From positions 496,001 through 560,000 of the forward strand of contig NZ_FTOV01000002.1 of NCBI RefSeq assembly GCF_900156825.1: DNA of 64,000 nt. The letters are read 5' to 3'. Position 1 is the first letter of the stretch; every line of letters starts with the position of its first letter. Of the stretch, positions 24,509 to 43,512 are shown in pieces. A program made the translations under genes and the position numbers. Under the pieces are notes generated by a model. It was not told the origin of the DNA. It searched no databases and saw only the letters and a list, made by a program, of their open reading frames with translations. The stretch is from Chryseobacterium gambrini (GTDB taxonomy: Bacteria; Bacteroidota; Bacteroidia; Flavobacteriales; Weeksellaceae).

Positions 24509-25111
24509 ATGATAAGAAAATTATTTCCTGCCTTACTATTGGTAGGTTCTTTTAGTTACGCTCAAATCGGTATCAACGGTGAAAATCCAAATGCCACATT
24601 GGATGTTATTGGCAATCCGGGAGATCCATTCAAATTTGACGGGATTATTGCCCCGAGAATTACAGGAGATCAATTGAGAGCAAAAAATTATACTGCATCA
24701 CAAAACGGAGCAATTGTTTTCGTTACACAGGAAGATACAGCTCCTGCAGGACAGACCATAGATGTTACGGCTTCCGGATATTACTATTTTGACGGAAATT
24801 CTGGGAAATGGATCAAGCTGATCTCTGCTGCAGCTTCACAAAAAATCAGGACATTATCAACCGGAACTGTTGCAGACGACGATTATACCGTTTTAATATC
24901 TGGAGATGTTACTTTACCATCTGCAACTTCGTCGAACAGAGGAAAGGTCTATCAACTCATCAACGATACTGCAGGAAATGTAACGGTAAATGGTTTATTC
25001 AGAATCAACGGAGGCAATTTTTCTAACTATGGATTAAATAACAGCAATCTGGGAAGAGGAATTGTAGTGCAGAGTACGGGATCGGCTTGGGTAATTACTT
25101 CAAGATATTAG
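24509..25111 (+). CDS. Exported protein of unknown function
   Basis: A 200-residue product with a signal peptide (MIRKLFPALLLVGSFSYAQ). The mature start IGINGENPNATLDVIG is a motif common in flavobacterial surface proteins. The rest is beta-rich with G/N/T turns. No type IX sorting tail is visible; the protein ends WVITSRY. It is monocistronic with its own -7 box and terminator. It may be a surface or extracellular protein. Function unknown. Confidence 0.8.
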   Translation: MIRKLFPALLLVGSFSYAQIGINGENPNATLDVIGNPGDPFKFDGIIAPRITGDQLRAKNYTASQNGAIVFVTQEDTAPAGQTIDVTASGYYYFDGNSGKWIKLISAAASQKIRTLSTGTVADDDYTVLISGDVTLPSATSSNRGKVYQLINDTAGNVTVNGLFRINGGNFSNYGLNNSNLGRGIVVQSTGSAWVITSRY

Positions 25112-25235: not shown

Positions 25236-26930
25236 TTACGATACTCTTTTTAGTCTTATTTCCTCTTTTCGTTTTTTGAGAAAATCAGCAGGTCGAATGC
25301 CATTTTGTTCATAAAATAAATTTGAAAAACTTTGCCGATTGCTAAAACCACAGGCAAGTGCTATATCTTCTACAGAGTATTTTTGCCAAAGTTTATTATT
25401 GTATATTTTTTCTGTTGCGTAATCTATTCTTAATTTATTGATATAAGTATTGAAATTACAGCCCTGATATTCATTCATAAATTGTGAAATATAAGTTGCA
25501 TTGGTTCCAAACTCTATTGCAAGTTTTCCAGCAGTAATTCCTTTTTCAAGAAAGCCATTATTTTTTTCAAAATCAGAGAATTTACTTTTAAGAAGCTGAA
25601 CTGTTTTTATTTCTATCTTTGAGTTCTTTTCGGTAAGTTTATTAAGATCTGCATTTTCTTTTATTTTTGTATTCTTTGAACTGATTTTTTCTAACAGCTC
25701 CTCATATTTAATCTGAATTTCTTTTTTCTTTCTCAGCCAATATGCTAAAAATAATATAAGAACTAAAATTACGACGAAGCTGAATATGAGTAAAAACTTT
25801 CCGAAAGAATTGGTTTTTTCAAGATTTGATTGAGCTTCAAGTAAAGATTTTGTATCGTAGTCCCGGTGTATACGATTGGAAAGATATTTAAAATCTGTGG
25901 AGATGATGCTGTCTGCTTTTAGCAGTTGCTTGGTATAATATAATTCTTCTTTTGGTTGGTTTTTATTTCTGTAAAATGTAATAAGTTTTTCGTAATTGTT
26001 TCTTAATTCAGGAAGAATAAACTGGTATTTATTGAAGATAGAATCTACTTTCTTATAATCAGAAAGAGCTTTTTCAGTATTTTTTAGTTCATCATAAGCA
26101 GATCCCCGATAGTAGTAAATGACAGATGCAAAGGTGTAATCATTAATTTTTATGAATTCAGGCAGTGCTTTGTTAAATATTTGAATGGAATTTAGATAAG
26201 ATTTTTTATTAAATTCTGTAATGGCTTCACTTTTATAGAAATAACTTTTTTCGAGATTGAAAAAAGAATCTTTTGGAAGAGCATCTAATCCTTCTTTTAT
26301 AAGTTTTTCAGATTCAGTATAATTTCCCAGTTGCTGGTAACAGACAATCATTTGATGTAAGCAATTGAGATAGCCTTTTTGATGATTCTTGATAAGATTA
26401 GGGTGTATATTTGCTTTTATTTTTGATTTAAAATAGACATTACATGACTTAAATAATTGTAATGCTTCTTCATAATACCCCAGATAGCTTTTTACAACAC
26501 CAATATGGTATAGATTTTGGTATTTTAGAAATTCATCATCTGTATTTTTTGTATACTCATATGCCTTCAAATATTCATTCAGAGCTGGTTGAAATTTTCT
26601 GTAGGTAAAATAATATACAGCTCCTTTACTTATATATGAACTGCCAATAAGATCAGAATTTCCAGATAATTTTGCAGCAGAAATAGCACTGTCTGCATAT
26701 TCTATTTTTTTGTTTGGTGAATATCTTATAGCATCATCATAAGCCTGAAACAATTCTGCATAATTTTTTTCTTTTTTTGCTTTCGATATGTAGATGTTGA
26801 GATAATGAAAAGCTTTTTGATCATTCTCTTCATATATCCAATATTTATTTCTTAACGCAGAATAATAATCCTGTGCTGACAGTTGACAGATTGTAAAAAA
26901 AACAAAAAAGCTGAAAATAGTTTTATTCAT
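25236..26930 (-). CDS. TPR-sensor transcriptional regulator with AraC-type DNA-binding domain
   Basis: A 564-residue one-protein sensor. It has an N-terminal signal (MNKTIFSFFVFFTICQLSAQ), about 350 residues of TPR-like helical repeats, a membrane helix near residues 380-400 (LLIFSFVVILVLILFLAYWL), a coiled region, and a C-terminal AraC-type HTH (GTNATYISQFMNEYQGCNFNTYINKLR and VEDIALACGFSNRQSFSNLFYEQNG). The TPR part should lie outside the inner membrane and the HTH inside. ATG 26930 was preferred to an upstream Met because the signal peptide begins there. It is divergent from the RiPP-like cluster and is its best regulator candidate. Confidence 0.85.
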   Translation of the reverse strand: MNKTIFSFFVFFTICQLSAQDYYSALRNKYWIYEENDQKAFHYLNIYISKAKKEKNYAELFQAYDDAIRYSPNKKIEYADSAISAAKLSGNSDLIGSSYISKGAVYYFTYRKFQPALNEYLKAYEYTKNTDDEFLKYQNLYHIGVVKSYLGYYEEALQLFKSCNVYFKSKIKANIHPNLIKNHQKGYLNCLHQMIVCYQQLGNYTESEKLIKEGLDALPKDSFFNLEKSYFYKSEAITEFNKKSYLNSIQIFNKALPEFIKINDYTFASVIYYYRGSAYDELKNTEKALSDYKKVDSIFNKYQFILPELRNNYEKLITFYRNKNQPKEELYYTKQLLKADSIISTDFKYLSNRIHRDYDTKSLLEAQSNLEKTNSFGKFLLIFSFVVILVLILFLAYWLRKKKEIQIKYEELLEKISSKNTKIKENADLNKLTEKNSKIEIKTVQLLKSKFSDFEKNNGFLEKGITAGKLAIEFGTNATYISQFMNEYQGCNFNTYINKLRIDYATEKIYNNKLWQKYSVEDIALACGFSNRQSFSNLFYEQNGIRPADFLKKRKEEIRLKRVS

Positions 26931-27080
26931 TCCTTTTTTAATTTGTTTTTCATGGAATTCTTTTTTCACTTCAAATGTAATTATTTTAATATAATAAAAG
27001 TTTACATAGATATAAAAATGTTTTTTACTGATGATAATAAATCACTGATGATTAGAGTAATAAACAGAGGAAATGTAAAA

Positions 27081-27219: not shown

Positions 27220-27438
27220 ATGAAATTCAAAATCACTATAATCTTACTTGGGCTTTTTTGTGTGTTGTTAAATTCTTGCAGGGAAACTGAAGATCTAAAT
27301 TATCCAAATACTGTTTCAGATAATATTACTTTACAAAAGGATAGTAAAAAAGAAAAAGACTCTAGTGAAAACCAAAAGGATCCTCCAATAAAAGGAACTC
27401 ACTGGAAAACTCAAAGTGTAGGTTCCGCTGAAAAATAG
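27220..27438 (+). CDS. Small putative lipoprotein
   Basis: A 72-residue product with a lipoprotein signal (ITIILLGLFCVLLNSC, Cys about residue 20). The mature part is short, polar and charged (DSKKEKDSSENQKDPP). It lies one base before the outer-membrane receptor gene, so the two are certainly translated from one message. It is probably an accessory to that receptor. No family was recognised. It opens the putative RiPP operon. Confidence 0.75.
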   Translation: MKFKITIILLGLFCVLLNSCRETEDLNYPNTVSDNITLQKDSKKEKDSSENQKDPPIKGTHWKTQSVGSAEK

Positions 27439-27439
27439 A

Positions 27440-29608
27440 ATGAAAAAATATACATTACTTTTTTTATTAATATCTGTCTTTTCTTTTGCTCAGGACTCGA
27501 TCAATAAGATTGTAGAAAAGCAAATAGAGCAAATAGAAATTGTTACAAAGAAAAAATTGATTGAAAGAAAAATCGACAGATTGGTATTTAATGTTGAAAA
27601 TTCAATTTCTGCAACGGGGGGAGATGCACTTGATGCCTTAAAAGTAACACCTGGAATACGCGTGCTCAATGACAAAATTTCGATGATAGGTAAAAGCGGA
27701 ATGATTGTGATGGTGGATGATAAAGTAATAAAACTCTCAGGAGATGATCTTATAAGTTTTTTAAAAACAATACCATCAGACAATATTAAAAGTATTGAAG
27801 TAATTACAGTGCCACCGTCCAAATATGAAGCACAAGGAAATAGCGGGATCATTAATATAAAGCTTAATAAAGTAAAACAAAATAGTTGGAACAGTTCAGT
27901 GAGAAGTACTTATACACAAACCACTTATCCTGCGGGAACTATAGGAGGAAGTTTTAATTATAATAAAGATAAAATTTCTATTGAATCTGATTTGGGATAT
28001 ACAAACGGATCGATTGCTCCCAGCTATAATACAACTTTCTTTTATCCCAATCAGATATGGAGAGAAGTAAATACAAACAGAAACTATTACGATTTGGTTC
28101 GTGGAAAATTGGGCGTAAATTACAGATTTTCTGACAAGTTTAATATTGGCGTACAGTATATGTCCAGTAATAACAAGAAAAGAAATTTAGAAAATGATCA
28201 TTCAACCATAACAGATAATATTAGTAATTCTATTGACTCCTTAATCGTTAATAAAGCTGAAAATAGAATAAGAAATAGATTTAATACTGTAGATTTTTAT
28301 TCCGTTTATAAATTAGATACTCTGGGTAGAAAAATTTCAGCAAATTTTAACTATTTGAAATTTAAAGATACACAAGACAGGATTTTTAGCTCAAATAATT
28401 TGTTGGCAAACAATGTGGTAATTCCCAATTCATATTATTCTGCCAATAATATTTCAAAACAGGATATTGAAAATTATTCGGCAAATGTTGATGTGGATTT
28501 TCCGACTAAGTTCGCAGATTTTACTTTTGGTGGGAAAGTTTCTTTTACAAAGAATAAAACAGATCTGGCTTTGTACAATCTTAGTTCAGGAAGTTCAATA
28601 TATGATGCTGCACAGAGTAATCGGTTTGTTTATAAAGAAAATACAGAAGCACTGTATTTTTCTGCCAGCAAAAAATTATCCGAGAAATGGGAAACCCAGC
28701 TGGGTCTAAGATTTGAAACTACACAAACTGAGGGGAATTCAATTTCTTTAGATAGAATAAATAAGAATAATTACTCGAAATTATTTCCAACATTTTATCT
28801 GACATATACTCCTGATGAAAATAATATTTTCTCAATTAACTACAGCAGAAGATTAAACAGACCCAATTTTGAGGATTTAAATCCATTCAGAATATACAAT
28901 AACAAATACCAGTATTCTGAAGGCAATCCCTTTCTTCAGCCAAGTTACAGTCATAACATGGAGTTGAGTTATACTCTTAAAAATAACTGGACAAGTAAGC
29001 TTTACTACTCTAAAATAACAGATGGTTCAGGCGGTATTATTTTGATAGATCCAGTGAATAATAATTTACAGGCAAATATAATTTTAAATTATTTGAACTC
29101 ACAAATCATAGGTCTTTCAGAATCGTATACATTAAACTTAAAAAAATGGTTTCAAAGTTATAACAGTTTTGATGTGTATTATTCTAATTCAAAATCAACA
29201 GTGCCATATATAAACTCTAATGTGGACGGATTTAATTATAACCTGACTACCAATAATACTTTTAGTCTTAATAAGGAAAAGACCGTTTTATTCGGACTGA
29301 ATTATTCTTACAATTTTAAGGGAGTTTCGGGAGTAGACAGAATTTCCGCATACAGCCAGCTTGATGTATCATTAAAATTTTTGTTTTTAAATAAAAATCT
29401 GAGTCTTGCAATTATTGGAAATGACATTTTAAAAAGCAGTATCATAACCCAGACTTCAATAACCAATAATTATCAGATTATATACAAAAACTATGAGGAT
29501 ATAAGGTTTTTAAGGCTGTCATTAGTTTACAAATTTGGTAATAAAGATATCAAAAGTACTCAGATAGAAGGAAGTAACGAAGAAGAAAAAAACAGACTTA
29601 AAAAATAA
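27440..29608 (+). CDS. TonB-dependent receptor-like outer-membrane beta-barrel protein
   Basis: A 722-residue outer-membrane protein. It has a signal peptide (MKKYTLLFLLISVFSFAQ) and a plug domain (GGDALDALKVTPGIRV ... IKSIEVITVPPSKYEAQGNSGIINIKL), followed by a long barrel with alternating strands. The pattern fits the PF14905-type barrel group (RRLNRPNFEDLNPFRIYNNKYQYSEGNPFLQPSYSHNMELSY). No N-terminal carboxypeptidase-like domain is present, so it is shorter than SusC. In this cluster it may move the finished peptide across, or bind it at, the outer membrane, or give self-protection. That is inference from position. Confidence 0.88.
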   Translation: MKKYTLLFLLISVFSFAQDSINKIVEKQIEQIEIVTKKKLIERKIDRLVFNVENSISATGGDALDALKVTPGIRVLNDKISMIGKSGMIVMVDDKVIKLSGDDLISFLKTIPSDNIKSIEVITVPPSKYEAQGNSGIINIKLNKVKQNSWNSSVRSTYTQTTYPAGTIGGSFNYNKDKISIESDLGYTNGSIAPSYNTTFFYPNQIWREVNTNRNYYDLVRGKLGVNYRFSDKFNIGVQYMSSNNKKRNLENDHSTITDNISNSIDSLIVNKAENRIRNRFNTVDFYSVYKLDTLGRKISANFNYLKFKDTQDRIFSSNNLLANNVVIPNSYYSANNISKQDIENYSANVDVDFPTKFADFTFGGKVSFTKNKTDLALYNLSSGSSIYDAAQSNRFVYKENTEALYFSASKKLSEKWETQLGLRFETTQTEGNSISLDRINKNNYSKLFPTFYLTYTPDENNIFSINYSRRLNRPNFEDLNPFRIYNNKYQYSEGNPFLQPSYSHNMELSYTLKNNWTSKLYYSKITDGSGGIILIDPVNNNLQANIILNYLNSQIIGLSESYTLNLKKWFQSYNSFDVYYSNSKSTVPYINSNVDGFNYNLTTNNTFSLNKEKTVLFGLNYSYNFKGVSGVDRISAYSQLDVSLKFLFLNKNLSLAIIGNDILKSSIITQTSITNNYQIIYKNYEDIRFLRLSLVYKFGNKDIKSTQIEGSNEEEKNRLKK

Positions 29609-29618
29609 ACGCATAAAT

Positions 29619-29666
29619 AAAGACCAACGAGGGTATAAAACAGAACGTTAAAGTTCTGGTGTCTTT
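29619..29666 (+). promoter_or_regulatory. Possible RNA structure ahead of the precursor gene
   Basis: Outer arms AAAGAC (29619-29624) and GTCTTT (29661-29666) enclose a perfect palindromic hairpin, CAGAAC/GTTCTG (29641-29658). It lies just after the receptor stop and 42 bases before the precursor ATG. It could be a processing site or weak attenuator. Confidence 0.4.
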
Positions 29667-29707
29667 AAAAGTTTGCCGATTGTTTAACCCATTAAAAAAT
29701 TAATAAC

Positions 29708-29863
29708 ATGGAAAAGAAAAAATTCAATGCCAAAGATTTTTTGAATGTTAGCACTTTATCACCGCTTGAATCTGCAGAGATCAAAGGAGGTATGGCTGAC
29801 ACTATTAAAACTGTAAGAACAGTTAAAACTGTTGTAGATGTAGTAACAACAGTAACAAACTAA
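29708..29863 (+). CDS. Double-glycine RiPP-like precursor peptide
   Basis: A 51-residue product. The leader (MEKKKFNAKDFLNVSTLSP, then LESAEIKGG) ends in Gly27-Gly28, the usual cut site for C39 peptidase exporters. The 23-residue core after GG starts MAD and then shows a three-residue period: TIK-TVR-TVK-TVV-DVV-TTV, ending TN. It has many Thr and Val, alternating basic residues, and no Cys or Ser. Neighbours supply a C39 ABC exporter and two putative oxygenases. The core lacks Cys, so it cannot be an ordinary lanthipeptide. A strong hairpin follows immediately. Confidence 0.85.
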   Translation: MEKKKFNAKDFLNVSTLSPLESAEIKGGMADTIKTVRTVKTVVDVVTTVTN

Positions 29864-29884
29864 AAACTAAAGTTTTTACAGCTA

Positions 29885-29909
29885 AAGGCGGTGGAAAATC
29901 CACCGCCTT
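29885..29909 (+). terminator. Strong hairpin after the precursor gene
   Basis: A perfect 11-bp GC-rich stem AAGGCGGTGGA/TCCACCGCCTT with a three-base loop is followed by ATAAAATTT rather than a clean T run. It probably works as a partial terminator or stabiliser, giving more precursor message than enzyme message. Confidence 0.7.
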
Positions 29910-29932
29910 ATAAAATTTAAAAACATATAACT

Positions 29933-31240
29933 ATGAATACAGAGATATTAGCAGAAATAAAACCATTTTCTTCAGAATGGTGGGATTTTTTCCTAAAAGA
30001 AAATGGAAACTTTACAGAGACCAAAGTATTTAAAGGTGTAATAAGCGATGCGGATGTTGTTCTTTTAAATGAAGAAATAGTTAAAATTCTACAAGAATTA
30101 TATTTATTAAAAACAAATAAGTATGGTTTTAGAATATACTTAGATGGGAAGGAACAGGATAATACTTTTATGACTAATTTATTCGAAAACCATGCGCCTT
30201 TTGATAATGAAAATATTACAGAATATTTTAATAGAGTGTTTTCAGATAAGAAATTTGGAATGATCATTAATCATACTGAAAAATTTTCTGAAGAATTAGC
30301 TCGTAATGTATTATTAAAAATACAGCCATTACTCGATAAAGTAGGTATTCCCCTAACAGGATTAAGTGCTCACATACTAATTGGAAACTACGGATGGACT
30401 CCTTTAGGGATTCATCAGGATACCAGAGGCGAAAATGTTATTCATTTTCATTTGGGGCCTGGTCCTAAAATTATGTACAACTGGAACGAGGAAGATTATA
30501 AGGAACTGACCGGTAAAAAAGATAATAATAAAGATGTCGAACCACTTTTACCATACGCAGAAAGTTATCCCTTTGAAACGGGAGATCTTTATTATATGCC
30601 TTGGAATAAATATCATATCGGCTTCTCAGACCAATTTTCTGTAGGCCTTACCATTTGGTTTAACAATCCTACAAAGAGGAGTTTTACTACCGCAATTCTT
30701 GATGCCCTTCATTTGCAGCATCTTAATGAGGATGACGAAATTTTAAGCCCAAATAAGGACAAAGATATTGATTTAACGTTTGAAAATATTAAATCCGTAC
30801 TAAATCTCAATGAAAATCTAAAAGGACTGACTTTTATTGATTTATTAAAGTATCTCCACAAAGAGTATAAATTAGCGATTTTAAGCAACGGGGGATGGGC
30901 GAGTATTCCTGTGACCTTAAGTGATAAAATCAAGTATGAGATTGATAATTATGAAATACTGGATAATAAGAAAATTATCACTCCATATCCCTTTAAAACA
31001 TTTTACGAAAAAATAGATGATGAATTGGTGATTTTTGCAAGAGGATATAAGGTGAAAATTAGATATCATGATGAGCTAATAAATATAATTGATAAGTTAA
31101 ACCAGAATAAAGAAGAACTGGTAACGGATTTACTCAGTAATTTGATAGTTGATTGGCCTGTAGAAGCAGGTTTATACTTTTTATCGCTCCTTTATGACAA
31201 GAGAGCTATTAATATTGTTGAAACTAATCAGTTGAAATAA
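29933..31240 (+). CDS. JmjC/cupin-like putative Fe(II) oxygenase, first of a tandem pair
   Basis: A 435-residue protein. After a helical N-terminal part comes a cupin-type core: HILIGNYGWTPLGIHQD, then IHFHLGPGPKIMYNW, PFETGDLYYMPWNKYHIGFSD. The metal-binding set HxD...H is intact (about His161, Asp163, His228), as in Fe(II)/2-oxoglutarate oxygenases of the JmjC group. The last 120 residues (VIFARGYKVKIRYHDEL ... WPVEAGLYFLSLLYDKRAI) look like a winged-helix domain of the kind at the C-terminus of ribosomal-oxygenase-type enzymes, and could hold the leader peptide. Likely a peptide side-chain hydroxylase. Substrate and cofactor are inferred. Confidence 0.75.
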   Translation: MNTEILAEIKPFSSEWWDFFLKENGNFTETKVFKGVISDADVVLLNEEIVKILQELYLLKTNKYGFRIYLDGKEQDNTFMTNLFENHAPFDNENITEYFNRVFSDKKFGMIINHTEKFSEELARNVLLKIQPLLDKVGIPLTGLSAHILIGNYGWTPLGIHQDTRGENVIHFHLGPGPKIMYNWNEEDYKELTGKKDNNKDVEPLLPYAESYPFETGDLYYMPWNKYHIGFSDQFSVGLTIWFNNPTKRSFTTAILDALHLQHLNEDDEILSPNKDKDIDLTFENIKSVLNLNENLKGLTFIDLLKYLHKEYKLAILSNGGWASIPVTLSDKIKYEIDNYEILDNKKIITPYPFKTFYEKIDDELVIFARGYKVKIRYHDELINIIDKLNQNKEELVTDLLSNLIVDWPVEAGLYFLSLLYDKRAINIVETNQLK

Positions 31241-31241
31241 G

Positions 31242-32531
31242 ATGGAACAGGCAATTATCGAAAAAGTAGAATCTTTTTCTGCGGAGTGGTGGGATCATTT
31301 TTTAGAAGATAGTGGGAATTTTACTAAAACAAAAGTATACAAAAATGTAATTTCTAATGATGATATTGATATATTAAAGAACGAAGCAGTAAAGATTTTA
31401 CAGGAGATTTATACTCATAGAACTAATCAGTATGGGTTTAGAGTGTACATAAAAGGTGAAGAACAGGATATAAACTATATATCCAAACTTTTTGATGCTC
31501 CACCAACTGAAAAAGAAACTTTGGAAAGTTATGCCGAAAGAGTTTTTGAAAAACAAAAATTCGGAATGATTATTAATAGAACTGAAAAATTTTCAGAGAA
31601 AGTTTCACAGAATATTTTATTAAAATTACAGCCTTTACTGGATAAAGTAGGAATACCTTTAACAGGACTGGAAATGACTCTGTTTGTAGGAAATTACGGA
31701 TGGACACCTTTGGGAATTCATATTGATATTAAGGGCGAGAATATAATGCATTTTCATCTTGGACCCGGTCCAAAAATAATGTATAATTGGGAAGAAGATA
31801 CATATAAGGGGTTAACTGGCAAAAAAGAAAATAATACAGATATAGAACCACTTCTGCCTTATTCGGATGCATATCCTTTCGAAACTGGAGATTTTTATTT
31901 TATGCCATGGAATAAGTATCATATAGGATTTTCTGATGAATTGTCTATCGGATTTATAGTTGGATTTAACAATCCTACAAGAAAAGGTTTTACATCTGCA
32001 ATTTTAAATTCTATTTCTCAGCAATATTTGAATGATAACAAACAAATATTAAGTCCGGATAAAAACGTAGAAGTTGAAGATTCATTTAATGCCATTGAAT
32101 CAGTAATTAATTTAGATGAAAATCTTAGACACCTATCTTTCCTGGATTTGATGAAGTACTTACACAAAGAATTTAAATTAGCAATTTTAAGTAATGGCGG
32201 ATGGGCAAATATCCCAATAACCTTAAATGATAAAATAAAATATGATGTAGATAATTATGAAGTACTTGAGAATAAAAAAATAATTACTCCTTATCCATTT
32301 AAAACATATTATGAAAAAATTGGAGATGAGTTAGTCATGTTTGTGCGAGGTTATAAAGTAAAAATTAAATATCATGATGAATTACCCGGAATTATTGATA
32401 AATTAAATAGAAATAAAGAGGAGGAAGTAACGGATTTATTAAGTACTTTAACGCAAGATTGGCCTGTAGAAGCCGGCTTATACTTTTTATCATTACTTTA
32501 TGATAAAAGAGCAATTAATATCATCGAATAG
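31242..32531 (+). CDS. JmjC/cupin-like putative Fe(II) oxygenase, second of a tandem pair
   Basis: A 429-residue paralogue of the preceding protein, alignable end to end and starting one base after its stop. The HxD...H set is also intact (about His160, Asp162, His227, in GIHIDIKGE and NKYHIGFSD). Core phrases HFHLGPGPKIMYNW and PFETGD are nearly identical, while N-terminal and linker parts differ. It arose by local duplication. Two active copies suggest two different target positions in the precursor, or a heterodimer. The C-terminal winged-helix-like region is retained. Confidence 0.75.
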   Translation: MEQAIIEKVESFSAEWWDHFLEDSGNFTKTKVYKNVISNDDIDILKNEAVKILQEIYTHRTNQYGFRVYIKGEEQDINYISKLFDAPPTEKETLESYAERVFEKQKFGMIINRTEKFSEKVSQNILLKLQPLLDKVGIPLTGLEMTLFVGNYGWTPLGIHIDIKGENIMHFHLGPGPKIMYNWEEDTYKGLTGKKENNTDIEPLLPYSDAYPFETGDFYFMPWNKYHIGFSDELSIGFIVGFNNPTRKGFTSAILNSISQQYLNDNKQILSPDKNVEVEDSFNAIESVINLDENLRHLSFLDLMKYLHKEFKLAILSNGGWANIPITLNDKIKYDVDNYEVLENKKIITPYPFKTYYEKIGDELVMFVRGYKVKIKYHDELPGIIDKLNRNKEEEVTDLLSTLTQDWPVEAGLYFLSLLYDKRAINIIE

Positions 32532-32542
32532 CAAAATAAAAA

Positions 32543-32908
32543 ATGAAAAAAATAATACTTTTAATACTTATGACTGCATTATCAAATTTAGGAACAGCCC
32601 AGACAAAAACTACCAGTAGTACAAAGTCTTCCGAAAGCTATAGTTATTCGACTTCTTTTGATGCAAAGCAAAAAGAGTCGATACTGAACTATTTAAAAAA
32701 AGAGCTAGGCAAAGAGTATAAAACAACGAACCAGAAGTTAGTATGGTCGAAGATTAGTGATCTTGAAACTAAAAATGACAAAACGTTTGTTAAACTAGAA
32801 GGTAATGAAATTGAATTAAATTATCAAAGTAAAAACGATTTATTGAATCCCCTTATATTGAAAAAACTGAAAAAAATATCTGATTTTATTGAATCAACCA
32901 ACAAATAA
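32543..32908 (+). CDS. Exported protein of unknown function
   Basis: A 121-residue product with a signal peptide (MKKIILLILMTALSNLGTAQ). A Ser/Thr-rich linker and a charged helical domain follow. It sits 11 bases after the second oxygenase and its stop abuts the ABC transporter start, so it belongs to the same operon. It could be a periplasmic accessory for export or immunity. No family was recognised. Confidence 0.7.
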   Translation: MKKIILLILMTALSNLGTAQTKTTSSTKSSESYSYSTSFDAKQKESILNYLKKELGKEYKTTNQKLVWSKISDLETKNDKTFVKLEGNEIELNYQSKNDLLNPLILKKLKKISDFIESTNK

Positions 32909-35116
32909 ATGAAATTTATTCCTCAGTATAATATCATGGACTGTGGTCCGGCTTGTCTGGCTATGATTGCCAATGAGTATGGAAAAAAATATACTCTGAA
33001 ATATTTAAGAGAAAAATCATTTCTTACAAGAGATGGAGTATCTTTATTAGGAATCAGCGAAGCGGCGCAAAGCATAGGATTTGAAACAGTAACAACCAGA
33101 ATAAATTTAGACCAGCTTTTAGATTTACCTACACCCTGTATATTACATTGGGATCAAAACCATTTTATAGTTTTAGAAAAAATAAAAGGATCCAAAAAAG
33201 GCAATAAGTCTTTTTTTAAAAGAGGCTTATTGTTTAAAATTGTTGATCCTTCCTATGGTATATTATACCTTAAGGAAACTGAATTTTTAAAGCATTGGAT
33301 TAGCAGCGACAACAAAGGTGTTGCATTATTTCTCAATCCTACAGATGCTTTCTATGAATATTCTCCACCTGCGGAAAATAAAATAAATATCAAATATTTA
33401 GCAGGAATTTTATTTCAGCATAAAAAACAGTTTTTGTGGATGTTATTATCTTTGCTTTTAGGCAATTTAGTAAACATCGCTTTCCCGTTTTTAACGCAAA
33501 ATCTTATAGACAAAGGAATTACGGACAAAAATCTGTCAATTGTTCAATTGATACTTTTTGCGCAGATCAGCTTGTTTCTGGGAGCTATGACTGTTGAAAT
33601 CATTAGAAACTGGCTGGTTTTAAAAGTAGGAACAAAAATCAGCATAACAATTATTTCAGACTTTCTAAGAAAATTATTACAGTTAAAAATAAAATTCTTT
33701 GATACTAAAATGATGGGCGATTTCACTCAAAGAATTCAGGATAATGAAAGAATCGAAAATTTTTTAACTTCACAGAGTTTAATCACTATTTTTTCCATTA
33801 TTTCATTTTGTGTATTTTTTGTGATTTTGGGATATTACAACTACACAATACTGTTCATTTATTTGCTTCTTACTGTTTTAGCTGTTTGTTGGTCTGCATA
33901 TTTTCTAAAGAAAAGAAGCATACTCGATTTTTATAAATTTAAATTAAAAAGTGAAAATCAAAATGCCATCTATGAGATTATAAATGGTGTAACAGAGATG
34001 AAGCTAAATCAGTTTCAGGATTTTAAGAATAAAGAATGGCAGAAAATTCAGGATAAATTATTACAAATAAATGCAAGAGTTCTGAGGTTAACTCAATTTC
34101 AGATCGGCGGTTTTGAAATAATCAACCAGATTAAGAACATTATTGTAACCTATATATCAGCTGTTTGTGTGATAAAAGGAGAAATGTCATTAGGTGAGCT
34201 TATGGCAATTTCTTTTATATTGGGACAAATGATCTCTCCTCTTAACAGTATTACAACATTTTTTTATTCTCTACAGGATGCCAAGCTTAGTTTGGAAAGA
34301 CTCTCTGAAGTTCAGTATCATGAAGATGAAGAAAATGAAAATTTAATCCCTCTTCCAAAAACATCTTTATTAAATAATCAAGGGATCAATATTAATGATG
34401 TTTCATTTCAATATGAAGGTCCTAAATCTCCATTTGTTCTTAAAGATATTAGTTTTAAAATTCCGGAAGGAAAAATAACGGCAATTGTCGGCGCAAGCGG
34501 TAGTGGAAAAACTACTTTAATGAAACTGCTTCTGAGATTTTACGAACCAACAAGAGGGGAACTTTTCTATAATTCTGAAAATATATCAAAAATTTCCCCA
34601 AAAAGTTTACGGGAAAATTGTGGTGTCGTAATGCAGGATGGCTTTATATTTTCAGATACTATTGAAAGAAATATTGCCACTGGTGATGAGGAGGTAAACA
34701 GAGAAAAACTTCAAAACGCAGTAAAAATTGCAAATATAGAAGAGTTTATAGATGAACTTCCTTTAGGATATAATACCAAAATCGGAGCATCAGGAAATGG
34801 TATTTCTGGTGGGCAAAAACAAAGAATACTTATTGCAAGAGCAGTTTATAAAAACCCTCATTACATTTTTTTTGATGAAGCTACTTCTGCACTTGATGCC
34901 GAAAATGAAAAAATCATCCATGACAATTTACAACAGTTTTTCAAAGGAAAAACAGTTTTAATAATCGCACACCGTTTAAGTACAGTGAAAAATGCCGATC
35001 AAATTATTGTCTTAAAAAATGGAAGAATTGTAGAGCATGGAAATCATCAGACATTGGTTGATAATAAAGCAGATTACTATAATCTGGTAAAAAACCAGCT
35101 GGAGTTGGGCAGCTAA
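32909..35116 (+). CDS. C39-peptidase-containing ABC exporter
   Basis: A 735-residue exporter with three parts. An N-terminal C39 peptidase has a catalytic set of about Cys12 (NIMDCGPACLAM), His85 (WDQNHFIVLE) and Asp113 (IVDPSYG). A six-helix transmembrane domain spans roughly residues 165-440. The ATPase domain has Walker A GASGSGKTT near 527, signature SGGQKQR near 631 and Walker B IFFDEATSALDA. Such proteins cut double-glycine leaders during export. It is the last gene of the cluster and matches the GG site of the precursor at 29708. Confidence 0.95.
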   Translation: MKFIPQYNIMDCGPACLAMIANEYGKKYTLKYLREKSFLTRDGVSLLGISEAAQSIGFETVTTRINLDQLLDLPTPCILHWDQNHFIVLEKIKGSKKGNKSFFKRGLLFKIVDPSYGILYLKETEFLKHWISSDNKGVALFLNPTDAFYEYSPPAENKINIKYLAGILFQHKKQFLWMLLSLLLGNLVNIAFPFLTQNLIDKGITDKNLSIVQLILFAQISLFLGAMTVEIIRNWLVLKVGTKISITIISDFLRKLLQLKIKFFDTKMMGDFTQRIQDNERIENFLTSQSLITIFSIISFCVFFVILGYYNYTILFIYLLLTVLAVCWSAYFLKKRSILDFYKFKLKSENQNAIYEIINGVTEMKLNQFQDFKNKEWQKIQDKLLQINARVLRLTQFQIGGFEIINQIKNIIVTYISAVCVIKGEMSLGELMAISFILGQMISPLNSITTFFYSLQDAKLSLERLSEVQYHEDEENENLIPLPKTSLLNNQGININDVSFQYEGPKSPFVLKDISFKIPEGKITAIVGASGSGKTTLMKLLLRFYEPTRGELFYNSENISKISPKSLRENCGVVMQDGFIFSDTIERNIATGDEEVNREKLQNAVKIANIEEFIDELPLGYNTKIGASGNGISGGQKQRILIARAVYKNPHYIFFDEATSALDAENEKIIHDNLQQFFKGKTVLIIAHRLSTVKNADQIIVLKNGRIVEHGNHQTLVDNKADYYNLVKNQLELGS

Positions 35117-35240: not shown

Positions 35241-35242
35241 CG

Positions 35243-35313
35243 TAGACCCACAGGGATTCGAACCCCAGATGACTGAACCAAAATCAGTAGTGTTACCGCT
35301 ACACCATGGGTCT
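35243..35313 (-). tRNA. tRNA-Gln (anticodon TTG)
   Basis: A 71-base cloverleaf on the minus strand. Acceptor AGACCCA pairs with TGGGTCT. The anticodon stem ACTGA/TCAGT encloses the loop TTTTGGT with anticodon TTG (Gln). The T arm contains GGTTCGAATCC. The discriminator is A. CCA is not encoded. Confidence 0.95.
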
Positions 35314-38605: not shown

Positions 38606-39047
38606 AAACAGATTTTACATTTTTATTATCGTTGGTCTGCTGATTTCCAATCTCTTATTGGTAATCTTCATGCTCACGCGAAAACCTCCGCATCATTCGG
38701 GGCCGAGAAATCTCATTATTGAACGGCTGCATTTGGATGAAAAACAGATACAGCAATATGACGTGCTGATTCAGCAGCACAGAATGCAGATCAGAGAAAA
38801 AGAACACGAAATGATGGATGCGAAAACGCAGTATTATTCATTATTAAAAAATAAAGATCAGATAAACGGAGATTCTTTGGTGCAGCATATCGGAACAATA
38901 AGCATGGAAACCGAGAAAATTAATTTTAAACATTTTCAGGACATCAGAAAAATCTGCCGTCCCGACCAGTTGCAGGATTTTGATCATCTTATTGATGAAT
39001 TTGAATCTCTTTTTGCTCCGGGACCGAAACCTCCACACGAGCGATGA
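38598..39047 (+). CDS. Spy/CpxP-like periplasmic protein, membrane-anchored
   Basis: A 149-residue protein. One N-terminal membrane helix (FYIFIIVGLLISNLLLVIFML) is followed by a helical, charged periplasmic part (RLHLDEKQIQQYDVLIQQHRMQIREKEHEMMDAK) typical of Spy/CpxP/CnrX-type heavy-metal resistance and chaperone proteins. Several His and Met residues occur (RKPPHHSGP, EKEHEMMDAK). Such proteins sense or buffer metal or unfolded protein stress. It overlaps both neighbours by a few bases, so it is firmly part of the ECF operon. Confidence 0.75.
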   Translation: MTKNRFYIFIIVGLLISNLLLVIFMLTRKPPHHSGPRNLIIERLHLDEKQIQQYDVLIQQHRMQIREKEHEMMDAKTQYYSLLKNKDQINGDSLVQHIGTISMETEKINFKHFQDIRKICRPDQLQDFDHLIDEFESLFAPGPKPPHER

Positions 39048-39721
39048 AAAAAAATTATTTCGTTTTTATTTTCCTGGCTTCGGTGAATTTTCTCTTTTCG
39101 CAGAACATCTTTACCGGAATACAGTTCAGTCCGGTTTGGGGTTCTGAAAAACTGAAAATAGAGAAAAAATATGCATTAAAAGATGATGTAATTTCCCTAT
39201 CTAAATTAAAATTTTACGTTTCGGATGTCTGTCTTAAAAAATCAGAAAAAATCGTTTACAAAACACCGGAAAAATCTTATTTAATTGATTCTGAAAACAG
39301 ATTGAAAATAGATTTTGATAAAAATACTCCAGATGATTTCGACGAAATTCAATTCAATATCGGAATTGACAGTCTTACCAATGTTTCCGGAGCAATGGGT
39401 GGAGATCTTGACCCGGTGAACGGAATGTACTGGTCGTGGCAAAGCGGATATATTAACTTTAAGATAGAAGGAAATTCTGAAAAATCAGGTGCTGTTCATA
39501 AAGATTTTCAGTTTCATGTTGGAAGATATTTAAAACCTTTTGAAACATTACAAACAGTTATTTTGCCCTTGAAAAGAAACCAAAATGTAATTTTTGTAGA
39601 TATTTTACGGTTTTTATCAGAAATTGATTTAAGTAAAACTCATTCCGTAATGTCAACGGGAGAAAAAGCAGTCGTTCTTGCCCGTCAGTTTCAGAAAATA
39701 TTTTCTACAGATTCTAAATGA
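39044..39721 (+). CDS. MbnP-like copper-associated periplasmic protein
   Basis: A 225-residue exported protein with a signal peptide (FIFLASVNFLFSQ). The core GAMGGDLDPVNGMYWSWQSGYINFKIEG (about residues 116-143) is the hallmark of MbnP-type proteins, and the preceding DFDEIQFNIGID fits. In methanotrophs MbnP binds copper after the di-haem enzyme MbnH oxidises a tryptophan to kynurenine. Here two Trp lie in the motif and a di-haem peroxidase gene follows after 21 bases, the same gene pairing. Copper binding and Trp oxidation are inferred from the family. Confidence 0.85.
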   Translation: MKKNYFVFIFLASVNFLFSQNIFTGIQFSPVWGSEKLKIEKKYALKDDVISLSKLKFYVSDVCLKKSEKIVYKTPEKSYLIDSENRLKIDFDKNTPDDFDEIQFNIGIDSLTNVSGAMGGDLDPVNGMYWSWQSGYINFKIEGNSEKSGAVHKDFQFHVGRYLKPFETLQTVILPLKRNQNVIFVDILRFLSEIDLSKTHSVMSTGEKAVVLARQFQKIFSTDSK

Positions 39722-39742
39722 TGTTCCGATAAAAATATTATT

Positions 39743-40813
39743 ATGAATAATGATAAAGGTAAATTTCATCTTATGAGAGGAATGCAGAAATACATTCTTG
39801 CTTTTTTATTTCTGATTCCGTTATTGGCTTTTACCTTCAAAGATCTCTACACACTTTACATCCCCGAATATTTTCCAAAACCTGTTTACGATTTTAAAAA
39901 AGAACCGTTAACCAAAGAAAAAGTAGAGTTGGGAAGAGTCTTGTTCTACGATCCTGTTTTATCAAAAGACGGAACGGTTTCCTGCGCTTCCTGCCATACT
40001 TCGTACAACGCCTTTGCACATACGGATCACGCCTTAAGTCATGGAATCGGAGATTCTATCGGAAAAAGAAATGCTCCGGCGCTGTTTAATCTGGCGTGGC
40101 AGAAAGATTTTATGTGGGATGGTGCGGTTAATCATATTGAAGTTCAGGCTTTAGCTCCGATAAGCGATAAAAAGGAAATGGCAGAATCTATTGAAAATGT
40201 TGTTAAAAAACTTCAGGCTAAAAAATTGTACAGAACCCTTTTTTACAAAGCTTTTTCAGACAGCACCGTTACAGGACAGCATCTTTTGAAGGCTATTGCC
40301 CAATTTCAGCTTACCTTAATTTCCGCAGATTCCAAATACGATCAGGTAAAAAAAGGAAAAGAGAGCTTCACGGAGCAGGAACAGAAAGGCTATGAGATTT
40401 TTAAACAAAACTGCCATTCCTGTCATCAGGAACCTCTTTTTTCATCCTACCAATTTGCAGCTAACGGATTGCCGATGGATTCATATCTGAAAGATGTTGG
40501 AAGAATGGGAGTTACCCGACAAAAGAAAGACAGTTTGATGTTTAAAATCCCTTCTTTAAGAAATCTAAGCTATTCTTATCCTTATATGCACGATGGAAGA
40601 TTCACCAGATTAAGTCAGGTAATTAACCATTACACCAACGGAATACAGCAGAATTCAAAAGTTTCAAAAGAATTCAGAAAAAAAATCATCCTTACAGATC
40701 ATGAAAAAGTTGATCTCATCGCATTTCTGCTTACTCTTAACGATAGAGAATTTGTGAAAAACCAGAATTTTCAGTTTCCGAAAGAAATTTTACTGCCCTC
40801 CGAAGGAAAATAA
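39743..40813 (+). CDS. Di-haem cytochrome c peroxidase, MbnH-like
   Basis: A 356-residue protein with a membrane/signal segment (YILAFLFLIPLLAF) and two haem c sites, CASCH near residue 80 and CHSCH near 223, in the CcpA/MauG fold (LGRVLFYDPVLSKDGTVSCASCHT ... PSLRNLSYSYPYMHDGRFTRLSQVINHYTNG). A start at ATG 39782 is also possible and would leave a tighter signal peptide. Next to an MbnP-like gene, an MbnH-type tryptophan-oxidising role is favoured over plain peroxide removal. The last codons contain the -35 block of the next ECF promoter. Confidence 0.9.
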   Translation: MNNDKGKFHLMRGMQKYILAFLFLIPLLAFTFKDLYTLYIPEYFPKPVYDFKKEPLTKEKVELGRVLFYDPVLSKDGTVSCASCHTSYNAFAHTDHALSHGIGDSIGKRNAPALFNLAWQKDFMWDGAVNHIEVQALAPISDKKEMAESIENVVKKLQAKKLYRTLFYKAFSDSTVTGQHLLKAIAQFQLTLISADSKYDQVKKGKESFTEQEQKGYEIFKQNCHSCHQEPLFSSYQFAANGLPMDSYLKDVGRMGVTRQKKDSLMFKIPSLRNLSYSYPYMHDGRFTRLSQVINHYTNGIQQNSKVSKEFRKKIILTDHEKVDLIAFLLTLNDREFVKNQNFQFPKEILLPSEGK

Positions 40814-40829
40814 ATGTATTGTCGTCTAA
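40801..40829 (+). promoter_or_regulatory. Second ECF-type promoter, ahead of the YHYH gene
   Basis: CGAAGGAAAA (40801-40810, inside the end of the peroxidase gene) and TCGTCTAA (40822-40829) repeat the blocks at 37744-37772 with identical spacing. It lies 50 bases before ATG 40880. Confidence 0.7.
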
Positions 40830-40879
40830 GAAAGTAATGAGACTTTAATATTTTAAAGTGAAAACCTCAAAATATCGGC

Positions 40880-42226
40880 ATGAGAAAAAAAATTACCTAC
40901 TTGTTTTTATCTTTATTGGGAACTTTGGCTAATGCTCAAGGTCCCGCAGTAACTTCATGGCTGCAAAACACAACGGCAACAGGAACTTACTACCCGAACG
41001 GAAACTCTATTCCACAGGGGAACAGCATTCTCGTAAATTGTCAGGCGGTACAATATTCTGCAAGCAATGTTTATATTTCTACCAAAGGAATTCCGGCTTA
41101 TCCTACAGGTCCTTTTCAGGATGGAAATCCCAATCAGGCAGGAAATCAGAATGCCATTTTTAAATTTCCATTAACTCCGGTTCAAAATACAGGAACACCA
41201 ACAGCGACTTCACTCGGAAATATTGCTGTTTTTATCAATGGGGTCGCAGGTTTTGATCCTAAAGACGGCGTTTCCTGGAAATCTTCCACCAATGCTTGGG
41301 CAGGAGGTCCCACAGGTGGAACAGGCGACGGAGTCTGGCAGCGCGATGCAATTGTTTATGAAAAATTAGGGTTCGACTGCTCCAAAGGACATCCTGCAGG
41401 AACAAATTATCACCATCATCAGAATCCATCTGCTTTTAAATATGATCTGAATTTAATTTCCACGGTATGTAATCCTTATGATGCGAACGGATTATACACC
41501 ATTAATACTTCACAGCATTCTCCGCTTATCGGTTTCGCCTACGACGGATTTCCGATCTACGGAGCTTACGCTTACAAAAATGCCGACGGAATAGGAGGGA
41601 TTACCCGAATGAAATCCGGTTATCAGCTAAGAAATATCACAACAAGAAATACGATTAACGGCGTTTCTGTTACAGCGGGACCTCCGGTAAACTCTACATA
41701 TCCTTTGGGATCGTGCATTCAGGATTACGAATGGGTAGCTCACACAGGACAGGGCGATTATCTGGATGAACATAACGGAAGATTCTGTAAAACTCCAGAA
41801 TATCCCAACGGAACGTATTGCTATTTTGCAACGGTAGATGCCAATCACAATTCGGCTTATCCTTATTTGATAGGACCAACCTACTACGGTGTTTATGCAA
41901 ACAGAAAAGTGACCTCGGTAACGGAAACCACTACAACCTACACTTCAAATCTTGCGGTATCTGAAGCTGAATTTAAAAATATCAGTACGGTTTTATATCC
42001 CAATCCGGTAAGCGATTTATTGCTGATTCAGGTGGACCATTTACTAAAATATGATCTTAATATTGATCTGTATGATATGTCCGGAAAGCTGCTTATGAAA
42101 ACCCAGATGATCAAAGGAAGCACAATTGCTTATTTCGATACCCAGACTTTATACAGCGGAAACTATATGGTTAAAATTTCCAACGGTAAAAATACAATCT
42201 CAAAGAAAGTAGTTGTAAAACATTAA
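40880..42226 (+). CDS. YHYH-domain protein with type IX secretion tail
   Basis: A 448-residue secreted protein. It has a signal peptide (LFLSLLGTLANAQ), a YHYH domain with GTNYHHHQNPSAF near residue 177 and LIGFAYDGFPIYGAYAY, and a C-terminal sorting domain (VLYPNPVSDLLLIQV ... GNYMVKISNGKNTISKKVVVKH) of type IX (Por) secretion. YHYH proteins are of unknown function and are often found beside di-haem peroxidases. It appears to be driven by its own ECF-type promoter and is followed by a second peroxidase gene. The His cluster suggests metal binding. Confidence 0.9.
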   Translation: MRKKITYLFLSLLGTLANAQGPAVTSWLQNTTATGTYYPNGNSIPQGNSILVNCQAVQYSASNVYISTKGIPAYPTGPFQDGNPNQAGNQNAIFKFPLTPVQNTGTPTATSLGNIAVFINGVAGFDPKDGVSWKSSTNAWAGGPTGGTGDGVWQRDAIVYEKLGFDCSKGHPAGTNYHHHQNPSAFKYDLNLISTVCNPYDANGLYTINTSQHSPLIGFAYDGFPIYGAYAYKNADGIGGITRMKSGYQLRNITTRNTINGVSVTAGPPVNSTYPLGSCIQDYEWVAHTGQGDYLDEHNGRFCKTPEYPNGTYCYFATVDANHNSAYPYLIGPTYYGVYANRKVTSVTETTTTYTSNLAVSEAEFKNISTVLYPNPVSDLLLIQVDHLLKYDLNIDLYDMSGKLLMKTQMIKGSTIAYFDTQTLYSGNYMVKISNGKNTISKKVVVKH

Positions 42227-42312
42227 AAAATCTTCACAAAAAAATACCTCACAGATATTTAATCCAAAATATCTTGGTAAAACTTTTAAACTAAACATTC
42301 TAAAAACCTCTT

Positions 42313-43512
42313 ATGAAAAAACTTACATCATGGCTTGTTCCTGCATTCTTCATAGCAGTAGCCTTATATTCCTGTTCGGGCAGCGATACCTATGAAGCAA
42401 CTCCGGTTACACAGGAAGAATATCCCGGAATTCTGGCTGCTTTTGGTTCCAATATCAATCTCAGTAGTCTTGAAAATTACGCAAATCAGCCCAAACCGGC
42501 TTATATTACAAGAGATAATACCGCAGGAAATCCGATTACGGATAAGGGCGCTACATTGGGAAGAATGCTGTTTTACGACAAAAATCTTTCCAAAAACAAC
42601 ACCATTTCATGTTCAAGCTGTCACAAGCAGGAGCTTGCTTTTGGAGACAATGCAGTTGCGAGTACAGGAGTGAACGGAACAACTGGCAGACATTCCATGA
42701 GACTGGTCAATGCAAGATTCGGCAATGAAATGAAATTTTTCTGGGACGAAAGAGCGGCTAATCTGGAAGCACAGACTACGTTCCCGATTCAGGATCATAA
42801 CGAAATGGGCTTCAGCGGAACAAACGGTGACGGAACACTTCAGGATTTGATTGCAAAACTTCAGAACATTAAATACTATCAGGAAATGTTCAAATTTGTT
42901 TACGGAGATGCTACCGTTAATCAAACAAGAATTCAGAATGCGTTGGCGCAGTTTATCCGAAGTATTCAGTCTTTTGATTCTAAATATGATGTTGGAAGAG
43001 CCGCAAGCGCAAATGATCAGCAGCCGTTTGCAAACTTTACGGCACAGGAAAATCAGGGAAAAAATCTATTTCTTGCTCCTCCTGTTTTTGATGCGACAGG
43101 AAACCGTACCGGTGGCGGATTGGGTTGTGCAGCCTGTCACGCCGCTCCGGAATTTGATATTGATCCGAATTCCAGAAACAATGGAATTATTGGCAAAATC
43201 AGCGGAACCGGAATCGATGTTTTTAATACCAAAGCTCCAAGTTTAAGAAACATTACCAACAGCAGCGGAATAGAAAACGGACAGTTTATGCACACCGGAA
43301 ACCTGACAACGCTTCAGCAGGTGATTGGTCATTACGGAAATATCAATATTGCACCGGGAAATACCAATCTGGATCAGCGTTTGGCACCTAACGGAAACGG
43401 GCAAAAGCTAAACCTTACAGCCACGGAAGTAAATGCGGTGATCGCATTTCTGAAAACGCTTTCCGGAACCGACGTATATACCAATAAAAAATGGAGCAAT
43501 CCTTTTAAATAA
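42313..43512 (+). CDS. Di-haem cytochrome c peroxidase, lipoprotein
   Basis: A 399-residue protein with a lipobox (VALYSCSGSD, Cys about 21) and two haem c sites, CSSCH and CAACH, in the CcpA/MauG fold (LGRMLFYDKNLSKNNTISCSSCHKQELAFGD ... PSLRNITNSSGIENGQFMHTGNLTTLQQVI). It differs from the first peroxidase in being lipid-anchored and in its haem neighbourhood. It probably shares the promoter of the YHYH gene and may act on that protein, as MbnH acts on MbnP, or may remove peroxide. The first reading is inference. Confidence 0.92.
   Translation: MKKLTSWLVPAFFIAVALYSCSGSDTYEATPVTQEEYPGILAAFGSNINLSSLENYANQPKPAYITRDNTAGNPITDKGATLGRMLFYDKNLSKNNTISCSSCHKQELAFGDNAVASTGVNGTTGRHSMRLVNARFGNEMKFFWDERAANLEAQTTFPIQDHNEMGFSGTNGDGTLQDLIAKLQNIKYYQEMFKFVYGDATVNQTRIQNALAQFIRSIQSFDSKYDVGRAASANDQQPFANFTAQENQGKNLFLAPPVFDATGNRTGGGLGCAACHAAPEFDIDPNSRNNGIIGKISGTGIDVFNTKAPSLRNITNSSGIENGQFMHTGNLTTLQQVIGHYGNINIAPGNTNLDQRLAPNGNGQKLNLTATEVNAVIAFLKTLSGTDVYTNKKWSNPFK

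Follow-up and report, generated by a model that had tools for sequence, protein, structure and literature searches.

The ribosomal oxygenases (ROX) YcfD, NO66 and MINA53 hydroxylate ribosomal proteins, and unmodified class II bacteriocins are known for a double-glycine (GG) leader and a C39 exporter. For ribosomally synthesized and post-translationally modified peptides (RiPPs), the portions of the literature available to us describe BipG, BpmG and PbsQ as biphenomycin-type JmjC ornithine hydroxylases working on a ribosomal precursor peptide. According to the accessible part of a study on graspetides, loci of Bacteroidota, e.g., that of chryseoviridin, contain small precursors, an ABC transporter and, rarely (0.02), PF14905-type proteins, and they were exchanged between Chryseobacterium species (PMC8939145). 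Here, a stretch of 64,000 nucleotides from Chryseobacterium gambrini (NCBI RefSeq assembly GCF_900156825.1, contig NZ_FTOV01000002.1, positions 496,001 to 560,000 of the forward strand), termed the window and counted from its first letter, was analysed for a gene run with a GG precursor, two JmjC-type oxygenases and a C39 exporter. It is probably a conserved, apparently mobile operon for making and exporting a peptide with a repetitive core, in which the oxygenases hydroxylate the core and the C39 exporter frees it. It is best read as a RiPP-like system in which JmjC hydroxylases are the only maturation enzymes to be seen.

Gene arrangement

Seven co-directional genes fill positions 27220-35116 in the reading of the open reading frames (ORFs) of the window; a hairpin lies between two of them:

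27220-27438, + strand: small lipoprotein, 72 amino acids (aa), lipobox LNSC
27440-29608, + strand: outer-membrane beta-barrel of family PF14905, TonB-receptor-like, 722 aa (Pfam, E 5.8e-89)
29708-29863, + strand: double-glycine precursor, 51 aa, leader MEKKKFNAKDFLNVSTLSPLESAEIKGG, core MADTIKTVRTVKTVVDVVTTVTN
29885-29909, + strand: hairpin of 11 pairs just 3' of the precursor gene, from folding against shuffles
29933-31240, + strand: JmjC-type Fe(II)/2-oxoglutarate oxygenase A, 435 aa, HxD...H and Lys conserved in the alignment with oxygenase B
31242-32531, + strand: JmjC-type Fe(II)/2-oxoglutarate oxygenase B, 429 aa, with H160, D162, H227 and K178
32543-32908, + strand: exported protein, 121 aa, candidate periplasmic accessory or immunity protein
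32909-35116, + strand: C39-peptidase ABC exporter, 735 aa (Pfam PF03412, E 4.3e-30, PF00664 and PF00005)

An earlier note on this DNA had described the same run, and all seven genes were found in their places, including the barrel, whose identity as an outer-membrane receptor agrees with its Pfam match. The intergenic gaps amount, in gene order, to 1, 99, 69, 1, 11 and 0 bases; the two large ones flank the precursor gene, as the note had it, and the last falls just below the 1-13 bases it had given for the others. Its statement on missing maturases also holds: a Pfam scan of 8 cluster-side and 10 flanking proteins revealed no LanB/LanM, YcaO, radical-SAM, ATP-grasp or DUF692 protein, thus none of the 18 is a class-defining maturase of the lanthipeptide, graspetide, YcaO, radical-SAM or MNIO type.

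Precursor peptides

A profile of 17 precursors retrieved 92 relatives from the protein database. Together with 28 sequences from the loci described below, this gives 120 precursors, comprising 107 different combinations of leader end and core and 106 different cores. They present the two parts of a ribosomally encoded RiPP precursor, a conserved leader (consensus MEKKKFNAKxFLxxKxLSPLE...GG) and a variable core. No NCBIfam model scored above its cut-off on the window precursor, and none of seven further precursors was matched. The cores are built from simple repeats: poly-Gln, (Thr-Val)n, (Lys-Val)n, Val-Gln-Arg, HHHDGRHHHD and Lys-Glu. Poly-Gln cores with runs of 7 to 18 Gln were present at L012, L013, L034, L038, L072 and L073 (designations with L or P are our own handles). 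Other cores read LATAADTVTVTVTVTVTVTVTT at L062, RDKVKVKVKVKIKTRLTTTL at L009, FGAQEADNVVVRQVRQVVQVVQVVS at L063 and GSHHHDGRHHHDTNCISAIK at L033, and that of L032 is rich in Lys and Glu. Sorting of the 106 cores by script gave the classes KE (28), VT (24), VQR (16), VKT (11), poly-Gln (10), HHHD (4) and other (13).

Core entropy was low. Measured against segments of equal length from 281 ORFs (250 aa or longer) of these loci, 94 of the 106 cores were below the 5th percentile and 76 below the 1st, and none of 68 leader ends was below the 5th. Between precursors with leader ends at least 90 % identical (508 pairs), the median core identity was 58 %. The leader of a precursor named Chryseobacterium gambrini (P0137) equals that of the window letter for letter; its core is another one, built in similar style. 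Strict alternation as a general rule was rejected, because Val in the VQR cores comes in runs instead (lag-1 z +5.5). A lag-2 excess of V/I was observed for VKT (z 3.6) and for KE (z 5.1), a lag-1 deficit for VT (z -3.45; lag-2 z 1.2).

Oxygenases

Oxygenases A and B are 66 % identical to each other, and B is 99 % identical to a protein of Chryseobacterium sp. SL1 in the protein database. On neither oxygenase did a Pfam or NCBIfam model exceed its cut-off (JmjC_2 reached 12.2 bits versus 22 for A; nothing for B), and a sequence-profile search with the oxygenase alignment against the PDB gave no chain at E up to 1. By fold, the label JmjC/cupin-like of the earlier note is nevertheless right: the AlphaFold2 model of oxygenase B (mean pLDDT 92.2) matches the whole ribosomal oxygenases YcfD, NO66 and MINA53, covering model residues 10-429, with an identity of about 10-15 % in the structure alignments. 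The model predicts a JmjC fold plus a further C-terminal part as in YcfD and NO66, and this part aligns structurally with that of YcfD. The HxD...H metal triad and the basic residue of ROX enzymes (H160, D162, H227 and K178) are conserved in the alignment, the triad being nearly invariant across the oxygenase family. By analogy, K178 is presumably the residue that binds 2-oxoglutarate. In the relatives L040 (7947-9227), L041 (7962-9287) and P0120, HxD is replaced by HxG (HRG, HEG, HKG), a motif that occurs in some 2-oxoglutarate halogenases.

Alternatively, the oxygenase might carry out another oxidation of the 2-oxoglutarate type on the core, i.e., desaturation, oxidative cleavage or a cross-link; oxidative cleavage of a RiPP backbone is stated for a 2-oxoglutarate HEXXH enzyme in the accessible part of its description (PMC12636437). 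The fold relatives YcfD, NO66 and MINA53 as well as the RiPP enzyme BipG are hydroxylases, and such alternatives to hydroxylation seem unlikely to us.

The tandem of two oxygenases claimed earlier is present in the window and is no rule: among 30 loci, L033 has three copies and the others one. The three tandem oxygenases of L033 (7405-11315), from a genome of the same order as the window, accompany one HHHDGRHHHD precursor.

Conservation of the gene set

Oxygenase matches are rare and patchy, with 5 of 147 genomes of close relatives, 11 of 395 in the order, 21 of 320 in the family, and 2 of 395 each in the class and the phylum; these samples overlap and each includes the genome of the window. 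Thirty loci were read for their neighbourhood, namely the window, two from genome contigs, one plasmid and 26 from other genomes; fragment matches of 48 to 87 residues (L007/L027/L037, L058, L059) were left out of the loci, and distant homologues from Streptomyces, Nostoc and Pantoea out of the counts. In 26 of the 30 loci a GG precursor adjoins the oxygenase, thus a candidate maturation enzyme stands beside the precursor as in RiPP loci, and 26 have a C39 exporter nearby. The precursor is missing at L035, L036, L074 and L071, where the contig starts inside the oxygenase gene; the exporter is missing at L035, L036, L074 and L061, where the contig ends first. In the reverse direction, a precursor match was obtained in 8 of 316 genomes, a sample that likewise overlaps with the others and contains the genome of the window, with an oxygenase beside the match in seven, the eighth (L100) being a stop-interrupted fragment by prophage-like genes. 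Oxygenases mostly apart from GG precursor and C39 exporter, which would have spoken against the interpretation in the earlier note, were thus not encountered; the co-occurrence within Bacteroidota that it proposed as a check was seen in both search directions, and the part of its interpretation that stands is a peptide-and-exporter system around JmjC-type oxygenases, kept as a unit. Some loci of the Chryseobacterium group are near-copies (L063/L066, L067/L068, L011/L064, L013/L072), therefore locus counts are not counts of independent events.

A second, independent sign that the operon is a real unit is the hairpin behind the precursor gene. In the window, the 70 bases after the precursor stop codon fold with -22.6 kcal/mol (z -6.2, 0 of 200 shuffles as low). 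Tested with one precursor per locus (L032 and L061 hold a second copy), 24 of 26 loci had a strong hairpin at this place, where no more than 2 of 200 dinucleotide-preserving shuffles were equally stable (median z -5.25); the exceptions were L038 (6 of 200) and L073 (3 of 200). The 70 bases upstream had a median z of +0.22. The sequence of the hairpin varies between loci, its position is constant. A simple terminator scan of the window did not list the hairpin at 29885-29909, because it is without the T run of a classic terminator. Possibly it acts as a partial terminator or mRNA stabiliser that would let the precursor mRNA exceed the enzyme mRNA.

These data bear on another explanation, namely that the repetitive cores are decayed or slipping DNA in a degenerate operon. 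The poly-Gln length of 7 to 18, a few repeats with identical codon units and oxygenase or exporter genes in pieces at L038, L070 and L073 would agree with it. Synonymous codons are mostly mixed in the repeats, however, and CAA and CAG both occur in every poly-Gln core; hence the repeat pattern is kept at the protein level. With conserved leaders, the hairpin retained in 24 of 26 loci and intact oxygenase triads, degeneracy is very improbable.

The oxygenase lineage tracks the core type. Mapped on a maximum-likelihood tree built from 31 oxygenases, the core classes, which were assigned by eye with L061 taken as VK although Lys-rich, need 7 changes at a minimum of 6; the shuffled mean was 19.8 and 0 of 200 shuffles were as low, an association that the near-copy loci help. 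The tree holds 31 of the 32 oxygenase ORFs over 330 aa, L071 being excluded as its precursor was not seen; L038 is outside the 32, its gene being in pieces. The Val-Gln-Arg, Gln (support 90/83) and His classes each occupy one side of a branch. Oxygenases of the Gln type and the Val type differ at five alignment columns, two of which are gaps in the Gln type.

Because the nearest folds act on ribosomal proteins, one alternative has to be taken most seriously: the peptide would be a double-glycine bacteriocin without modification, and the producer's own target, e.g., a ribosomal protein, would be hydroxylated by the oxygenases as protection. Co-variation of oxygenase and core would also be expected for immunity, and GG leader and C39 exporter suffice for unmodified class II bacteriocins. 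Still, the oxygenase adjoins precursor and exporter in nearly all loci having them, and it is doubled in the window or tripled in L033 with one precursor. A low-complexity core would be an odd ribosome ligand, and a JmjC hydroxylase on a RiPP core has a precedent in the partly available accounts. On balance, we consider this alternative unlikely.

Proposed function of the operon

For core hydroxylation, the leader would bring the precursor to the JmjC oxygenases, perhaps via their C-terminal part. The oxygenases would then hydroxylate the recurring residues of the core on their side chains, probably at more than one site; in the window, these residues would be Val, Thr or Lys. This step is suggested by the fold, the metal triad, the co-variation with the core and the biphenomycin-type JmjC ornithine hydroxylases as far as their description was available; each oxygenase lineage would be tuned to its own repeat. 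As its peptidase domain and the leader indicate, the C39 exporter would cut the leader at Gly-Gly and export the core. The mature peptide may leave through the PF14905 barrel or be recognised by it, and barrel and exported protein might serve exit, recognition or immunity. Competition or signalling between bacteria is the most likely use of the peptide; the exported protein and the barrel would then provide immunity or the exit. As a real possibility, put forward tentatively, the loci may represent a new RiPP class, with a ROX-type JmjC enzyme as sole defining maturase that repeatedly oxidises simple-repeat cores, one lineage per repeat, yielding secreted polyhydroxylated beta-strand- or polymer-like peptides.

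Several observations weigh against core hydroxylation in a dedicated peptide system. Hydroxylation, as against another oxidation, is suggested by the modelled fold and the HxD motif. The enzymes with the most similar folds act on ribosomal proteins, so that the substrate could be a protein other than the precursor. No residue occurs in every core class, thus a single fixed reaction does not fit. With two changes on the tree for the VT class and three for the VK class, enzyme and core do not match perfectly. L035, L036 and L074 form one deep clade (100/100 support) of proteins of about 400 residues and have no peptide system, hence the wider oxygenase family does other things; distant relatives on Streptomyces, Nostoc and Pantoea plasmids adjoin different biosynthetic genes, among them amidinotransferase, arginase-family and DUF3865 genes. 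Identical DNA units occur in some repeats, e.g., three ACA-GTT in a row at L062, and slippage may have helped to generate new repeats. A PF14905-like barrel lies within 8 kb at 14 of the 30 loci by phmmer and was not found by this search within 8 kb at the other 16, of which L034 has one by Pfam. A profile of the small exported proteins from seven other loci reached the exported protein of the window at E 0.22, which is not significant.

Accessory genes

Lipoprotein and barrel lie in the same run as the oxygenases, which might hydroxylate one of them or another exported protein, the peptide being a separate passenger. At nine loci that retain the precursor, oxygenase and exporter genes (L010, L030, L031, L063, L065-L069), a search within 8 kb gave neither of these two; the conserved part is thus a three-gene core, and we judge the passenger explanation improbable. 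The exporter stayed below the cut-off of the NHLM-type model TIGR03796 (433 bits versus 853, NCBIfam), and no HlyD-type partner was found among the eight Pfam-scanned proteins of the window cluster.

Small exported proteins are present within 8 kb at 9 of 30 loci, of which L012, L032 and L034 were added by hand. That of the window has a clear relative only in L008 (phmmer 2.1e-38); its kinship with the others is suggested by size and place, and at E <= 1 a nine-member profile picked up no protein of the loci other than its nine seeds. Its model had a pLDDT of 80.5 and Flpp3 as best Foldseek match (E 0.029, TM 0.40), with none at E <= 0.001. The model alignment mixes the pair of window and L008 with the exported proteins of other loci, for which leave-out profiles (E 0.22 and 3) showed no link, so that the model is weak ground.

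Genes for ThiF-like, GNAT-like and PAS-LuxR proteins are near 5, 5 and 12 of the 30 loci, the 12 including L036, a locus without the peptide system. Near the precursor, a ThiF-like E1 enzyme, a GNAT-like protein (named so by us; it resembles an exosortase-system acyltransferase weakly, below the cut-off) and a PAS-LuxR-type regulator were observed at L010, L030, L032, L033 and L069. They were rejected as parts of the system and left as optional neighbours since none is among the window ORFs within 8 kb (phmmer); where present, they may add further modification.

Genomic context

Two features border the cassette:

25236-26969, - strand: TPR-AraC regulator, divergent from the operon, with a hydrophobic segment (Pfam HTH_18 4.3e-12, TPR_12 2.8e-10)
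35242-35313, - strand: tRNA-Gln (TTG), right border of the cassette

The TPR-AraC gene is present within 8 kb at 6 of 30 loci, the window included, and likely belongs to the cassette as its regulator. The small lipoprotein accompanies it at the same loci; small lipoproteins of the SCR(E/Q/D) type are also encoded at L013, L061, L072, L073 and L038.

Among the loci, the nearest relative of the window comes from Flavobacterium branchiophilum (L008, VT class) with 72 % identity, a sign of horizontal transfer. Genes are called katG, der, upp, serine recombinase and prophage-like here from reading of the sequences, with no search behind these names. The cassette is absent near der in all six corresponding stretches of relatives, and in L087 and L089 the tRNA-Gln sits between katG-like and der-like genes without the cassette; this cassette-free site points to horizontal transfer as well. 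A serine-recombinase-like gene lies at the same tRNA in L086. The gene set is thus apparently mobile. Megablast of the operon against a phage collection gave no match. Between the katG-like gene and the cassette, the window encodes a protein of 200 aa (24509-25111) without Pfam match; since L088 has a relative in this position, the gene may have been there before the insertion.

Individual loci show rearrangements. At L031, a transposase-like gene (10320-11099, named from sequence reading) is inserted between precursor and oxygenase, and the plasmid of Bergeyella porcorum (L038) carries a decaying poly-Gln version whose oxygenase and exporter genes are fragmented. Among the distant relatives, the Streptomyces copy L041 adjoins amidinotransferase and DUF3865 genes. 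On Nostoc plasmids, a small ORF of tandem octapeptides LK(V/A/T)GVRPD(A/G) (L039, 7722-7856; L040, 7708-7881) lies directly upstream of the distant oxygenase relative and a gene of about 280 aa then follows, possibly another repeat-peptide system. Elsewhere in the window, an MbnP-family protein is followed by genes for di-haem cytochrome c peroxidases (MauG-type) and a YHYH protein (39044-43512). Promoter-like sites were uninformative, with 50 counted versus 45.7 expected.

Comparison with known systems

The gene set recurs across Bacteroidota, typically with another simple repeat such as a Gln run, and agrees with none of the peptide classes met in the searches. None of the listed titles and abstract starts of open-licence papers describes this combination of oxygenase and repeat core, a result that speaks weakly for its absence from the literature. 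Should the cores be the substrate of the oxygenases, the operon would be a dedicated bacterial route to secreted poly-hydroxylated repeat peptides, poly-glutamine included, made by an enzyme fold known for the hydroxylation of ribosomal proteins. The loci would then offer natural enzyme-substrate pairs, with the lineage co-varying with the repeat, from which the rules of JmjC substrate choice could be read and tested, and they would add a maturase without family model, no Pfam or NCBIfam model being above cut-off on oxygenases and precursor.

With YcfD/RoxA, NO66 and MINA53 the oxygenases share the fold, the HxD...H metal site and the Lys after the motif; they differ in adjoining peptide precursors and exporters. 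Unmodified double-glycine bacteriocins have the GG leader and the C39 exporter in common with the present loci, but not the oxygenase beside the precursor and the low-complexity cores. Graspetide loci, as far as their description was available, share small precursors, an ABC transporter and PF14905-type proteins with the cassette and encode an ATP-grasp ligase, whereas none is among the 18 scanned proteins here. BipG, BpmG and PbsQ resemble the oxygenases as JmjC or cupin-like Fe(II)/2-oxoglutarate enzymes, a likeness drawn from their partly available description, not from sequence; in biphenomycin-type loci, according to the same accounts, the hydroxylase is one of several maturases, together with MNIO, B12 radical SAM, arginase and protease, while no other was seen in this cluster. 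Thus JmjC hydroxylases acting on RiPP cores as one of several maturases are already known from these accounts; what the listed papers do not describe is the JmjC enzyme as the only maturase seen, in combination with simple-repeat cores including poly-glutamine, in a system to be called RiPP-like pending its chemistry.

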